Shown here piece by piece: positions 5,383 to 47,136 of a stretch of 64,000 nucleotides of DNA. Under the pieces are notes generated by a model. That model saw only the letters and a program-made list of their open reading frames with translations, ran no database searches and was not told the origin of the DNA. This stretch comes from Halobellus litoreus (GTDB taxonomy: Archaea; Halobacteriota; Halobacteria; Halobacteriales; Haloferacaceae): contig NZ_JANHAW010000005.1 of the NCBI RefSeq assembly GCF_024464595.1, forward strand, positions 1 to 64,000, written 5' to 3'. Both the position numbers and the translations under genes were made by a program. Positions within the stretch are counted from its first letter, which is position 1. Each line of letters starts with the position of its first letter.

Positions 5383-5400
5383 CATCCCGCGCCTAAAGGC
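5383..5400 (+). repeat. Left half of a split TnpB-type right-end palindrome
   Basis: The CCCGCGCCTAAA half here and the matching half at 5644-5658 join, once the intervening insertion is removed, into CCCGCGCCTAAAGGCGCGGG. This resembles hairpins at right ends of haloarchaeal IS1341-type elements, so a second TnpB-type end or relic existed here before the insertion. Confidence 0.5.
5391..5400 (+). repeat. Target-site duplication (left) of the MITE
   Basis: GCCTAAAGGC is repeated exactly at 5644-5653 on the other side of the 243-bp element. Confidence 0.8.
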
Positions 5401-5643
5401 CTGTCTCTTACCCATAAGTTCACGGAGTCCCAAACAGACGTTTCAGACGCTGTCGAACCCAATCTGCAATCGGAAGATCGAGGCGAGGAGTGATCCGGGC
5501 GATGATCTCGGCGGTAGGGGGTTACTGAATGTGGTACACGGGATTAGCAAAATCGTTCCATAGGAGTGTTAAATCTGTAGATATCGAGGTTTCGATCGGA
5601 TTTATTGACCTCGGCAACGACTCGATTTGTGGGTAAGAGACAG
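5401..5643. mobile_element. 243-bp MITE with 14-bp terminal inverted repeats
   Basis: The element begins CTGTCTCTTACCCA and ends with the exact reverse complement TGGGTAAGAGACAG, and it is flanked by 10-bp direct repeats (GCCTAAAGGC). The ends resemble those of the IS4/IS50-like superfamily (compare CTGTCTCTTA of Tn5 ends). Read on the minus strand, 5437-5520 still encodes the C-terminal end of a transposase-like protein, finishing RQRLKRLFGTP-stop, so the MITE arose by internal deletion of a full-length insertion sequence. It has no gene of its own and would need a transposase supplied in trans. Confidence 0.8.
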
Positions 5644-5653
5644 GCCTAAAGGC
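5644..5653 (+). repeat. Target-site duplication (right) of the MITE
   Basis: This is an exact copy of GCCTAAAGGC at 5391-5400. The following GCGGG completes the palindrome split by the insertion. Confidence 0.8.
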
Positions 5654-5760
5654 GCGGGTATTCGCCTTGCTCTTTATAATCGAGAGCCGTACCTCGTTTC
5701 CCTGTTCGGAATTCGATTCTAGACACCGACCGTTGCACGCTCTCTGACGGTGGAACGCCA

Positions 5761-29481: not shown

Positions 29482-29533
29482 GGCTCTGTTGAAATCCTTA
29501 GTGAGTTACAGGTTCAGTCGATAGCTTGAGTAG

Positions 29534-30355
29534 ATGCAGACCCTCCCAAAGTCTCGGTTGCTCCGGTTTGTCGAGGAAGCCTTTCAGTTAGCGCAACGTG
29601 CCGTATCTCGATACTCCTCGAAGTTCTCGAAGCAACACTACACGCTCCATCAGCACATCGTTCTCCTGTGTCTCAAAGTTCGAAAGGATACGACGTATCG
29701 AACACTTCTCGACGAACTCATCGAGATGCCCCGTATTCGGAACGCGATCAATCTCACTGAACTGCCTGCCCCATCGACACTGTGCAAAGCGTTCGATAGA
29801 CTTGATATGGCTGTCTGGCGAGTGCTTCTCAATCTCTCTGTATCACTGCTCCCGACCAATGGCGTTGCGGGGATCGATGCTTCGGGATTCGACCGCAGTC
29901 ACGCTTCCAAACACTACACGAAACGAGCCGAACTCACGATTCAGCAACTCAAAGTAACACTGCTAGTCGATTCCAAAGTGAACGCAATCCTTGATCTACA
30001 CGTGACGACGACACGAAAACACGATAGCCAGATCGCTCCTTCGTTGATCAAACGCAACCCCGAGACTATCGACATCCTGCTCGGTGACAAAGGCTACGAC
30101 GACCAGAAGATCAGACGGCTTGCCCGTCAACACGAGATTCGGCCACTAATCAAGCATCGTGAGTTCACATCGCTTCACAAGGCATGGAATACACGCTTAG
30201 ACGCTGACCTCTACGGCCAACGGAGTCAATCAGAGACAGTTAACTCAACGCTCAAGCGGAAGTACGGCGCGTTCGTCCGTTCACGACGCTGGTGGAAGCA
30301 GTTCCGTGAACTCGCACTTGCGTGTATTGTCCACAATCTTGACCAAGCAATCTAA
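29534..30355 (+). CDS. IS5-family transposase
   Basis: This protein has 273 residues. The DDE residues are visible in GIDASGFDRSH (first Asp), DILLGDKGYDD (second Asp) and SQSETVNSTLKRK (Glu with the YREK-like tail). It is about 85-90% identical by eye to the transposase at 45144-45965, so both belong to one element family. It looks intact. Confidence 0.92.
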   Translation: MQTLPKSRLLRFVEEAFQLAQRAVSRYSSKFSKQHYTLHQHIVLLCLKVRKDTTYRTLLDELIEMPRIRNAINLTELPAPSTLCKAFDRLDMAVWRVLLNLSVSLLPTNGVAGIDASGFDRSHASKHYTKRAELTIQQLKVTLLVDSKVNAILDLHVTTTRKHDSQIAPSLIKRNPETIDILLGDKGYDDQKIRRLARQHEIRPLIKHREFTSLHKAWNTRLDADLYGQRSQSETVNSTLKRKYGAFVRSRRWWKQFRELALACIVHNLDQAI

Positions 30356-30414
30356 CGACCAGTGCAAGTGATAAACCGCACACTGTGAGGCGACGGAGTG
30401 TCTGCTCCGAAGCG

Positions 30415-30585
30415 CTATGATTTCAGTTGAAAGAGCATGAGTTCAAAGTCTGGTGTATCTGGATCATCATGTTGAAGGGGATATGCACCGTCGTTCAGGT
30501 CTACACCATTATTATATGCCTGTTGGATGATTTCATCCAGAGATTGACGGAGTTCTTCTTTCGTTGTCGGTCCTTGTCTTCTCAT
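30415..30585 (-). CDS. Passenger ORF 1, 56 aa
   Basis: MRRQGPTTKEELRQSLDEII opens a 56-residue acidic protein ending MLFQLKS, with a helical first half and an Asp-rich second half. It lies inside the transposon, antisense to the transposase and convergent with it. No family is recognised. Its composition is haloarchaeal-like (acidic), which supports a real gene. Confidence 0.55.
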   Translation of the reverse strand: MRRQGPTTKEELRQSLDEIIQQAYNNGVDLNDGAYPLQHDDPDTPDFELMLFQLKS

Positions 30586-30714
30586 TATTAACCGATTGTC
30601 GCACAGGAGGATAATATCTGGGCATTGTGCACCATGGCGGGTTTAATCCGCAGTCTTCAGCGAACGACTGTTGCAGGTAGTTTGAGAGGCCACGTATCAC
30701 TCTGTATTTCCCCT

Positions 30715-30912
30715 TTATTCAGTCAATTTCTCATCTCCAAAATCTGGGCCTTTACGTACGATGTTGGCCTCTCTGTCCCATTCGACTAACCCAATGGCCT
30801 CTAATTGCTCCAGAGAGTGATCTTTGAGCTGGAGGCGGAGTCGGGCAACGTCCTCATCGGTAGAAACAGGGTCATTACGGTATGCATCTTCTGGAATGTT
30901 GTTCTCTGTCAT
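30715..30912 (-). CDS. Passenger ORF 2, 65 aa, winged-helix-like
   Basis: LRLQLKDHSLEQLEAIGLVEWDREANIVRKGPDF looks like the C-terminal half of a haloarchaeal DUF7344-type winged helix (helix, then a strand hairpin). A 65-residue protein with an intact acidic start (MTENNIPEDAY) may be a small regulator moved by the transposon. It is 129 bases upstream of passenger ORF 1 and could be cotranscribed with it. Confidence 0.55.
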   Translation of the reverse strand: MTENNIPEDAYRNDPVSTDEDVARLRLQLKDHSLEQLEAIGLVEWDREANIVRKGPDFGDEKLTE

Positions 30913-31079
30913 GAGTTGCTATACTTCGGTTCTGAAAACGGATTAACCCCGAAGGTTTTCACACAGATTTGATGTTTGATTATCCGAGTGACAGCCAGCG
31001 ATCCGCATTCAATATGCATGTGTAGTGTACAGTAGATTCACGGGAACACATGTCTAAAGAAGAGGATTTCAACAGAGCC

Positions 31080-43276: not shown

Positions 43277-43598
43277 TTAGTCAGTCGCCCTAGGTGATGA
43301 TGAGTTCGATGTTCGGTCATCTTCGTTTGGGGCCTCCTGTTGTGGGGCTTCTCCAAACCCGCAACTGATAATGCGGATGAGGGCATCCTCAGTGGATTCG
43401 TCGAGTTCCCTGACGTCCTCTCGCGCAAGTTCAACGACAAATCCTGTTGTGATATTCGGTGCCGTCGGAATGAATACTACAACACGGCCATCTGACGCAC
43501 GATTCCCCGTCTTGAATCCGGTCATATACATCCCGGGCCACGTTTCTACCCGCACCGGCGTGCGTAGGTGGTCAGTCCCGTCAATAACCGTCTCAATC
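43277..43598 (-). pseudogene. DUF502-family membrane protein, 5' end removed by the transposon
   Basis: The frame is open from 43598, the base next to the transposon end, to the stop at 43277. MYMTGFKTGN, VVVFIPTAPNITTGFVVELAREDVRELDESTEDALIRIISCG is the conserved C-terminal part of DUF502. The N-terminal membrane segments are missing and are not on the other side of the transposon, so DNA was lost. The GTG at 43555 would give only a fragment. Confidence 0.75.
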
Positions 43599-43775
43599 GG
43601 CTCTGTTGAAATCCTCTTCTTTAGACATATTCTCGCCTGAATTAGCCGGTCAATGAGAGCTGCGGTCTTTCCGGGGTTGTTGGAGCTATTTTGATGGCCG
43701 AAGTGTTCAGGCAGGTATCGCGGTGTGTGGTGAGTATACGGAGGTTCAAGTGGCCGTGGGTTATGGTGTCAGATA

Positions 43776-45080
43776 ATGAACCGACGGCGGCTTCTCACAA
43801 CGATTGGCGTCAGCGGGACAGCAAGTCTTACTGGCTGTATCGGTAGGCTGACGGGGAACGGAGAAGAGGAAAATGACCCTACGCTAGAGGAGTTCCAGTA
43901 CTTCTTCGTCGATGAAACCGGAACACTTGGCGAACCGGCTGAAGGACAACAACCGCCGGAAGACGCAGAGGACTGGCAGATCGTAAAAAATACTTTAGAG
44001 GAATCCGACTGGCAGGAAAAACAGGAAAACGACGTCGAAAGAGCAAGAGGATATCTTGCAGGGGAAGCAACTGATGTAACAGGAAGCGGTCCTGATGGCG
44101 GAGAAGTCTTCGAGGGAACAGTCGAAGAAATCGTACAGAGAACTCAGGAAATGTATGAAAACCCTGAGGAAGAATTTGATCCCTCATCTGGAACTGAAGG
44201 TCATATACTTGAAGAGATGCAACAGGAAGACGACCCTGTCGCATTCACAAGAGCACTGATCCACGCTACAGATACAGTAACAGACGTTACCTCAAGTGGA
44301 GGAAAAGATTTCTTGGCACCAAACTTGGCTGAGTATGCGATGGAAGAACTTGGACTGGATTTCCCTGAATACGAACTTTCCACCATGATATCCACAGAAC
44401 CAACAGGACTAGAAGATCAGATGATTGAAGGCTCCATGAGAGAAACAGAGGGAGGCCAGACAATCGGAACTACTGGAATGAGACACCTCTTAAGCCTTCT
44501 AACTTACGAAAATGAAGACGGCGAACTTCAGAACAAGTACGTGGAAAACATCAAAGCACACCCCACAAGTACATTCCGTTCGATGTTGAGAGATCCCGAA
44601 GACAGTGCCTACAGAGAACCAATCGAAGGAGGACGTTTCAAGATACACGAAAACACCCAGGGAGCACCAATGTGGCCAGAACACTACGCAACCGCCTTCG
44701 AACAGGAAAAACTAGAGAACATGAGGGAAATGGGTCTTGACATAGATAACCCTGGAGAGCAGTTTACGATGGCTGCATTGGCCATGGTAGATGATGGATT
44801 AAACGACATATCTAAACTCCCTAACGAGGGATACCAGATAACAGTCTCTGATGAAATAAAGGAACAGGCAGAAGATTTTGCATTGAACCCGACGAAAGAT
44901 AAGAAGGAAAAAATTGAGAACTTTGGGAAGATGGCCTACAGCGTACTGGAAAAAGAGATTGGAGAAGATTTCAAAAACGATCCTATCTACGGAGCCGACA
45001 ATCCGATCCGGATAGAAGGATCACTTGAAACTCCGGAGTTCTACCACGAACCAAGAGAGAAATACGTAAGCGAACAATAA
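43776..45080 (+). CDS. Tat-type lipoprotein with foreign codon usage, 434 aa
   Basis: MNRRRLLTTIGVSGTASLTGC is a twin-arginine signal plus lipobox, so the protein is probably exported and lipid-anchored. The mature part is acidic and helical, with no recognised domain. Codon choice (AGA for Arg, GGA for Gly, many AAA/GAA and ATA) and the lower GC differ sharply from the surrounding CGN/GGC-rich genes and recall DPANN-type haloarchaeal symbionts. It lies between the transposon ends and was probably brought in with them. Confidence 0.8.
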   Translation: MNRRRLLTTIGVSGTASLTGCIGRLTGNGEEENDPTLEEFQYFFVDETGTLGEPAEGQQPPEDAEDWQIVKNTLEESDWQEKQENDVERARGYLAGEATDVTGSGPDGGEVFEGTVEEIVQRTQEMYENPEEEFDPSSGTEGHILEEMQQEDDPVAFTRALIHATDTVTDVTSSGGKDFLAPNLAEYAMEELGLDFPEYELSTMISTEPTGLEDQMIEGSMRETEGGQTIGTTGMRHLLSLLTYENEDGELQNKYVENIKAHPTSTFRSMLRDPEDSAYREPIEGGRFKIHENTQGAPMWPEHYATAFEQEKLENMREMGLDIDNPGEQFTMAALAMVDDGLNDISKLPNEGYQITVSDEIKEQAEDFALNPTKDKKEKIENFGKMAYSVLEKEIGEDFKNDPIYGADNPIRIEGSLETPEFYHEPREKYVSEQ

Positions 45081-45143
45081 ATGGAAGTAGCGCGTTCTCG
45101 TAGTCTGTCGGTCTTCGCTAACTGAGTTACCTGTATTGACCGT

Positions 45144-45965
45144 TCAGAGTGATCGGTCTATATTATGAATGAGACAGGCGATGGTGAGTTCCCGAAACTG
45201 TTTCCACCAGCGTCGTGACCGGACAAACGAACCAAACTTCCGCTTGAGCGTAGAGTTAACTGTCTCGGATTGACTCCGCTGGCCGTAAAGATCAGCATCT
45301 AAGCGCGCGTTCCATGCCTTATGGAGCGATGTGAACTCACGATGCTTGATCAGTGGACGAACCTTGTGTTGACGGGCAAGTCGTCTGATTTTCTGGTCGT
45401 CGTAGCCTTTGTCACCGAGTAGAACATCAATATTCTCGGGGTTGCGCTTGATCAATGACGGGGCGATCTGGCTATCGTGTTTTCGTGTCGTCGTTACGTG
45501 GAGGTCGAGGATTGCGTTCACTTTCGTATCGACCAGCAGCGTCATTTTGAGCTGCTGAATCGTGAGTTCAGCTCGTTTCGTGTAGTGTTTCGAAGCGTGA
45601 CTGCGGTCAAACCCTGACGCATCAACTCCAACAACTCCGCTCGTCGGAAGTAGCGTCGTTGAGAGAGTCAATATAACACGCCAGACAGCCATATCAAGTC
45701 GATTGAACGCCTTACAGAGCGTTGATGGTGCGGGAAGTTCAGCTAATCCGAGGACGCGACGAATGCGTGGCATCTCGATCAATTCGTCAAGTAGACCACG
45801 ATAGGTCGTGTTTTTCCGAACTTTGAGACAGAGCAGAACAACGTGCTGCGGGAGTGTATAACGACGTTTGGAAAATTTCGAGGAGTATCGAGAGACCGCT
45901 CGGCGTGCCAGATGGATCGCCTTCTCAGTAAAACGGAGAATTTGCGACTTCGGAAGGGGTTTCAT
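45144..45965 (-). CDS. IS5-family transposase, second copy
   Basis: This protein has 273 residues. The DDE motifs GVDASGFDRSH, DVLLGDKGYDD and SQSETVNSTLKRK are as in the 29534 copy, from which it differs at a limited number of positions, mostly in the first 110 residues. It looks intact. It reads towards the passenger lipoprotein gene (convergent). Confidence 0.92.
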   Translation of the reverse strand: MKPLPKSQILRFTEKAIHLARRAVSRYSSKFSKRRYTLPQHVVLLCLKVRKNTTYRGLLDELIEMPRIRRVLGLAELPAPSTLCKAFNRLDMAVWRVILTLSTTLLPTSGVVGVDASGFDRSHASKHYTKRAELTIQQLKMTLLVDTKVNAILDLHVTTTRKHDSQIAPSLIKRNPENIDVLLGDKGYDDQKIRRLARQHKVRPLIKHREFTSLHKAWNARLDADLYGQRSQSETVNSTLKRKFGSFVRSRRWWKQFRELTIACLIHNIDRSL

Positions 45966-46081
45966 CTCGTGGAATTACAGGGCGAACCTGTAACTCTTTG
46001 AGGATTTCAACAGAGCCAGAAGTTACTATATGGCTTATTTATCGAGAAGAGATACTTTAGCAGAGCCCTGGTGAAGAGGCG

Positions 46082-46488: not shown

Positions 46489-47136
46489 TCAGCTGTGTTC
46501 GCGCTTTCGTTGATATTTGTCACGGAGAAATTTGGAGAAGTGTTTAGCGAAAATGTTCAGTTGTTCTTCTGTGTAGTCGATCTGAACCTTTGGTGGTATA
46601 GTTTTTAGCACCTCTTCGGCGGCATATGCAGCATCTGATCTGAGATTTCGTTCCTCAATACTAAGATAACTCAAGGGGGTAATGAGCACGCTTGCATCGT
46701 CTACATCGGCAGATTCTAGCTCAATTGGGGTGTATACGCTTTCCGGGCCCTTCGGAGAGTTCGAGTACAGCCGCATTCTGGTTCCGTTAGTTAGCACGCC
46801 GTAATTTGCAGAGATCTCATTCATATAGTCAAACAGTTGCGATTGGTACTTGATGAGCGATTTATCGGGTGATTTGAACTCATACACGACCGTTTGTGAA
46901 TCCCGGTAGTTGTCAGATTTCCCGCTCGTAACGAAATCGACCTTCTTCTGGCTTGGCAGGGTAAATTCACTTCGCAGGTGATTCCCAACGTGTTCAAACC
47001 CAAGTGATTGAAAGAATCCCTGATTCAAAAATATCAATTCAACCTCACGCTCCGAGTGCTCTCTCTTAATTCGTGAACCAATATCATTCAAAGTGTGAGC
47101 GAGCACATCTATTTGTTCAACTTCTGATTCGGTCAT
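46489..47136 (-). CDS. Stand-alone HsdR_N-like nuclease domain protein
   Basis: This protein has 215 residues. FTLPSQKKVDFVTSG...QTVVYEFKSPDKSL (about 58-95) gives the D...ExK of a PD-(D/E)xK nuclease, followed by a YQSQLFDYMNEISANYGVLTNGTRMRLY segment typical of Type I restriction R-subunit N-termini. No helicase is attached. It is the last gene of a four-gene minus-strand operon, six bases after its neighbour. A defence or DNA-processing role is likely but not proven. Confidence 0.75.
   Translation of the reverse strand: MTESEVEQIDVLAHTLNDIGSRIKREHSEREVELIFLNQGFFQSLGFEHVGNHLRSEFTLPSQKKVDFVTSGKSDNYRDSQTVVYEFKSPDKSLIKYQSQLFDYMNEISANYGVLTNGTRMRLYSNSPKGPESVYTPIELESADVDDASVLITPLSYLSIEERNLRSDAAYAAEEVLKTIPPKVQIDYTEEQLNIFAKHFSKFLRDKYQRKREHS

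Follow-up and report, generated by a model that had tools for sequence, protein, structure and literature searches.

How does a lipoprotein gene with unusual codon usage come to lie between the inverted ends of an insertion sequence (IS), and what was its source? The locus is at 43599-46017 of the window, by which we mean the whole 64,000-nucleotide stretch of DNA analysed; the window lies on a contig of 122,538 bases in a 3.86-Mb haloarchaeal genome. The initial annotation had described a foreign-looking gene between transposon ends, with adjoining host DNA lost, and this description was supported by our codon-usage comparison, flank comparison and searches for the interrupted DUF502 gene. 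The reading we prefer, with a probability of roughly 0.85, is that 43599-46017 is one transporter-type IS with a lipoprotein gene as cargo, that the adjoining DNA was later lost, and that the gene belongs to a mobile haloarchaeal family.

Anatomy of the element and its flanks

The interval 43599-46017 forms a single unit composed of a 66-bp left end, a Tat-type lipoprotein gene, an opposite-strand IS5-family transposase gene and a matching right end. The features of this unit, of its flanks and of a second unit in the window are as follows.

29482-31079, reverse strand: second unit of the IS5-type family, with two small open reading frames (ORFs) as cargo and the 8-bp target duplication ATTCTGCC (from ends and flanks)
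29534-30355, forward strand: transposase of the second unit, 273 aa (from ORF and motifs)
43277-43598, reverse strand: truncated DUF502 gene, interrupted at the left end of the element, of which the 106 C-terminal residues are left (matches PF04367 at profile positions 48-107 only)
43599-46017, no strand assigned: whole cargo-bearing IS5-family element, 2419 bp
43599-43664, forward strand: left end, a 66-bp conserved module made up of the inverted repeat and a sub-terminal stretch (consensus of 30 units)
43776-45080, forward strand: cargo gene for a 434-aa lipoprotein with a twin-arginine signal and lipobox (LTGC), both read by eye from the sequence
45132-45160, no strand assigned: inner border of the transposase module, beginning CTGTATTGACCG, across the transposase stop codon (shared by most sister units)
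45144-45965, reverse strand: intact IS5-family transposase, 273 aa (NF033579, PF01609 and motifs)
46000-46017, reverse strand: right-end inverted repeat (from the end match)
46018-46025, no strand assigned: right flank AGAAGTTA, which differs from the left flank TCTCAATC (flank comparison)

The inverted ends at 43599 and 46017 were identical over 18 bp, and the end pattern, with up to three mismatches allowed, gave five matches in the window against a chance mean of 0.03. As had been proposed, these ends also bound the second IS5-like unit (29482-31079), whose outer 44 bp match the left end at 89%; that unit is inverted relative to 43599-46017, and its cargo differs. The transposase of the lipoprotein unit scored 221.7 bits against the NCBIfam model NF033579 (IS5 family; cut-off 140) and also matched PF01609. 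It has kept the motifs DASGF, GDKGYD and Y-x2-R-x3-E, which we take to be the DDE-type catalytic signature of IS5. The passenger between the ends is unrelated to transposition, as the lipoprotein matched no transposition family in Pfam, NCBIfam or PHROGs. No second copy of the lipoprotein unit was found in the host genome. The left end contains an A+T stretch, a candidate promoter by its sequence. Elsewhere in the window, an inverted repeat at 5386-5658 (32 nt, 91%, arms 209 nt apart) is unrelated to the IS5-type element family.

In the ISH1-type subgroup of IS5, the usual target duplication is 8 bp. No duplication was present at the lipoprotein unit, where the mismatch between the flanks that had been pointed out earlier was confirmed (TCTCAATC on the left, AGAAGTTA on the right). 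Because this duplication is missing, membership in IS5 rests on the transposase, the ends and the kin of the element, and by these 43599-46017 is an IS5-family member.

The left flank was ~87% identical to plasmids of Halorarius, Haloglomus and Haloferacaceae archaeon XH8 until query base 1098 (window 43597). Homology to all three plasmids stops at that base, and the reported cut of DUF502 at the element end thus proved accurate to within one base. In related plasmids the DUF502 gene is whole; it is annotated in L039 (208 residues) and L048, and is present without annotation in L049. In the window, 106 residues are left and the frame continues into the element. A query of 2301 bases from L039, comprising the missing part of DUF502 and the genes that follow, had no match in the 99.94%-complete genome; this one query came from a relative ~80-87% similar in the adjoining stretch. 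Since DUF502 is whole in related plasmids and its missing half was not found in the genome, the simplest reading of these sequences is that the DNA beside the right end of the element was probably lost or replaced. The right flank matched no plasmid and, within the genome, matched only itself. A gene to the right of the element (46489-47136) has weak restriction-endonuclease-like Pfam matches.

Sister units and turnover of cargo

The left end was common to 34 sister units from haloarchaeal plasmids and genomes, most of which also had the ~874-bp transposase module. Where the transposase of a sister unit was full-length, it lay 51-52 bp from the right end. Among 292 Halobacteria genomes, 129 contained the left-end 27-mer (up to two mismatches) and 138 the right-end 28-mer (up to three mismatches), and a reversed control pattern was absent among the matches listed. 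The 35 distinct units that we compared came from plasmid records (8), genomes (25) and the window (2); the 25 genome units were hand-chosen for having both ends within a few kb and are thus a non-random sample. One further entry, L093, was dropped as the same record as L043. An ISH3 transposase gene splits this unit, which is from a Halorhabdus tiamatea plasmid.

An exact 8-bp target duplication was present in 23 of the 35 units, including the second unit of the window. L099 had a duplication with a single mismatch, L044 had a 7-base match shifted by one, and the duplication was wholly absent from 10 units, the window lipoprotein unit among them. When flank pairs were shuffled, 0 of 1000 shuffles gave any matching duplication. 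These duplications indicate transposition of the whole unit in the relatives. As the window unit has none, we infer its movement in one piece from the sister units. Two units were examined later: an ISHxa2-annotated one (L160) had AGACGGTG on both sides, and an ISHla2-annotated one had no duplication.

Four of the 35 units had both ends and no transposase. One more, in the host genome (C4:224656-225204), is a MITE-like element of 549 bp with the same ends, an exact 8-bp duplication, GCTTGGTC, and no transposase. The ends therefore also serve non-autonomous elements. The host genome also has a solo left end (C4:217202) with no right end nearby, which could act as a capture point for new cargo.

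The units are built from two conserved modules. Across 30 units, consensus identity at the left end exceeded 0.9 for ~66 bases and then fell to background, and in most units the transposase module started at a border common to them, CTGTATTGACCG, which lies just past the stop codon of the transposase. In the 29 units with a transposase module, the cargo spanned 221 to 2162 bp with a mean GC of 0.489. No pair among the 35 longest cargo proteins matched in blastp at E 1e-3, a count that a gene split between L096 and L105 escapes; small cargo ORFs were called by length, and some may not be genes. Among the 12 pairs of units with the most similar transposase modules, 11 shared no cargo DNA, and unrelated cargo was found with transposase modules up to 93% identical. 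Judged from these comparisons of sequence, the cargo changes while the transposase stays.

An RDD-family gene, 95% identical over 444 bp, was re-used in L099 and L160, in opposite orientations relative to the transposase. L096 (unit 201-2967) and L105 (unit 201-1606) are the same element at ~99% identity, and together they reveal an empty site: L096 has a 1353-bp transposase-less insert inside its cargo gene, and the sequence flanking this insert, ATTCGAAC, occurs once in L105. The inserted cassette carries a gene for a 307-aa lipoprotein-like protein.

The cargo included a maltose-acetyltransferase-like protein, a low-molecular-weight phosphatase, RDD membrane proteins, PIN-type proteins, regulators, an NAD(P)-binding protein and many small hydrophobic proteins. 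Lipoprotein-like cargo was recognised by eye in three units (the window unit, L096 and L116). In a first count, 21 of the 34 longest cargo ORFs were of membrane type, compared with 28 of 77 annotated neighbouring coding sequences (p 0.011); L093, split by the ISH3 element, was left out of the 34. Three of the 77 controls were themselves cargo, and they were moved across, one per unit, for a recount. This gave 23 of 36 against 25 of 74 (p 0.003), under a post hoc hypothesis and a crude hydropathy rule.

Proposed movement of the unit and comparison with known systems

According to the preferred reading, the transposase would recognise the left end, conserved over 66 bp, and the right end fused to its own gene, and would move everything between them, cargo gene included, making an 8-bp target duplication. 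New cargo would replace old by capture of DNA between the left end and the transposase module. With an active transposase, the lipoprotein gene would have been carried in as cargo when the unit inserted into DUF502 on a plasmid-like contig. Deletion or replacement of DNA at the right end would then have removed the second copy of the duplication together with the 5' half of DUF502. The lipoprotein gene itself would derive from a family of haloarchaeal genes with several means of moving.

The variable part of the window unit is bounded by the 66-bp left module and the standard inner border, just as in the sister units, and many equally built sister units have duplications. Both observations argue against a chimera, in which the lipoprotein gene was already in place or came on its own, and recombination between copies brought the ends of two elements to its sides by chance. 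We consider such an origin unlikely, even with the mismatched flanks and the solo left end at C4:217202 in its favour. Also in its favour, the correlation between left and right modules was weak when two outliers were left out (r 0.21, p 0.12, 27 units); it was r 0.43 (p 0.004, n 29) when they were included. A composite transposon, in which two IS copies once surrounded the lipoprotein gene and the left one decayed to its end, would also place a transposase and inverted ends around a foreign-looking gene, but is highly improbable and was rejected on anatomy: the two flanking copies are absent, with a single transposase and no IS copy at the left in the genome, the left end is a distinct left-end type rather than a right end joined to what is left of a transposase, and the one-transposase layout is shared by most sister units.

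In the available text of two papers, transporter ISs (tISs) are IS copies with passenger genes (PMC3129680, PMC7986276). As far as that text describes them, the units reported here resemble tISs in having the size of an IS, one transposase, inverted ends and a passenger unrelated to transposition. They differ in that the passenger varies between nearly all sampled copies and the module borders are sharp at either side of it. The element is also similar to ISHla2 and ISHxa2, from plasmids of Halorubrum lacusprofundi and Halopiger xanaduensis, with 87-88% DNA identity in the transposase part and the same right-end type. The ISHxa2-type copy is in a 2490-bp unit that has an 8-bp duplication and carries an RDD protein and another membrane protein; the ISHla2-type copy, which lacks a duplication, carries a cargo of 57 aa. 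Haloarchaeal MITEs are mobilised in trans, according to the available part of one study (PMC3119063). The MITEs and mobile insertion cassettes of haloarchaea have a counterpart in the 549-bp transposase-less element of the host genome, which shares the ends of the window element and shows an 8-bp duplication; the window element, in contrast, has its own transposase.

No description of variable cargo in an IS5-type haloarchaeal family was found in the literature searched, which covered few subscription journals. Passenger-carrying ISs are already known; what appears new is near-unique cargo per copy in a widespread IS, whose ends occurred in nearly half of the Halobacteria genomes searched. We suggest tentatively, at somewhat less than even odds, that Halobacteria hold a widespread cassette-type transposon system, in which the transposase module and the 66-bp left end capture, exchange and spread single genes, with a bias toward membrane or lipid-anchored products. 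Such a gene-shuttling device would be comparable in effect to bacterial cassette systems. Were this borne out, single genes, often ones that encode membrane or surface proteins, would owe a large part of their spread through the plasmids and chromosomes of haloarchaea to a very small transposon, and cargo swapping by a simple IS would become a testable question. It would also explain lone genes of odd composition in haloarchaeal plasmids without symbiont donors. The window element illustrates how surface-protein genes may pass between archaeal plasmids.

The lipoprotein, its relatives and its source

The 434-aa ORF uses AGA for 9 of its 17 Arg codons and GGA for 24 of its 39 Gly codons. In the other 39 non-overlapping window ORFs of at least 150 aa, AGA made up no more than 0.25 of Arg codons and GGA no more than 0.50 of Gly codons. 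Among 26 ORFs tested, its codon usage was the most distant (9.63), and the AGA/GGA-rich coding noted by the initial annotation does set it apart. The accompanying statement that its GC is lower than that of every neighbour was incorrect, as the gene at 46489-47136 has a GC of 0.445 compared with 0.468 for the lipoprotein gene. The codon usage of that neighbour, which encodes only 215 aa, was nearly as odd (9.3).

We then searched for relatives of the lipoprotein. A six-member profile gave long matches in 10 of 391 Halobacteria genomes, one of them (G535) broken; any match at all was obtained in 33 genomes, and in 23 of these it covered short stretches only, mostly the signal region. Halovenus salina added one relative, and a plasmid search another, from Halobacterium hubeiense. 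In another search, matches were listed in 17 of 392 genomes, with E <1e-40 in only three, one of which was the window itself. Two short peptide patterns, run against 84,980 bacterial and archaeal species, returned three loci, all from Halobacteria. By the present sequence searches, the lipoprotein family is rare and restricted to haloarchaea.

Nine relatives were 31-40% identical to the window lipoprotein. In Halolamina (locus GC 0.667) and Halovenus, the genes of the relatives have a GC of 0.456-0.493 and use AGA for about half or more of Arg codons; AGA is less frequent in the nearest relatives by identity (those of Halobacterium hubeiense, G550 and G397). Because several relatives are coded alike, the AGA-rich, low-GC style belongs to the gene family inside haloarchaea. 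The initial annotation had raised transfer from a nanohaloarchaeal (DPANN) symbiont, with a possible effect on symbiont contact, and AGA/GGA-rich coding at 46.8% GC is compatible with such a source. We regard it as very improbable, as every clear relative in the genome, plasmid, profile and species-pattern searches (the last with the two peptide patterns) was haloarchaeal, and several relatives share the codon style amid DNA of up to 67% GC. The homologues are thus haloarchaeal and several have similar composition, but they look mobile and unlike the ordinary chromosomal genes that had been named as the alternative to a symbiont donor. A viral origin was rejected, since a phage search gave no relative and none of 161 pattern stretches from viral contigs was one.

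Tyrosine integrase genes lie near relatives at three loci (Halolamina pelagica, Halovenus aranensis and G245). The Halovenus salina relative adjoins a DDE transposase match that is weak and scores under the curated threshold. In L156, from a genome of the same genus as the window, a relative adjoins a same-strand cluster of genes for conjugation-type ATPases (TraG-D_C, TrwB, AAA_10). With integrase, transposase and conjugation genes as neighbours, the lipoprotein gene appears to travel by several vehicles. In G604, a relative lies between two degenerate ends 2975 bp apart, with two and three mismatches (expectation 0.015 per 18 kb), and no duplication or transposase was found at that locus. 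That this relative is carried between ends of the IS5-type family is suggestive only.

The window lipoprotein is most probably exported to the cell surface by the Tat pathway and anchored in the membrane. Speculatively, a mobile protein with such an anchor might act in surface or entry exclusion. Searches of Pfam, PHROGs and NCBIfam gave no family worth naming for the window lipoprotein (best E 0.12 and 0.43). Across 10 members, family searches gave TAT_signal in two, two single weak hits and nothing else. A PDB sequence match to a chromatin assembly factor (best E 0.018) was taken as chance. Two structure models had mean pLDDT values of 53 and 52, with a best Foldseek E of 0.08, and the best VIA match (Z 4.3, C-terminal parts of ClpB/ClpC) was below a meaningful level. 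The lipobox Cys is the only Cys invariant among the relatives. Among the matches listed for the low-confidence model (pLDDT 53) were weak ones to TgpA (6g49; Z 2.9, rmsd 6.2, 141 aligned) and to arylamine N-acetyltransferases (Z 2.5-2.8, rmsd 4.4-5.7, 106-125 aligned); a transglutaminase-like middle part of the lipoprotein would be a guess of ours.
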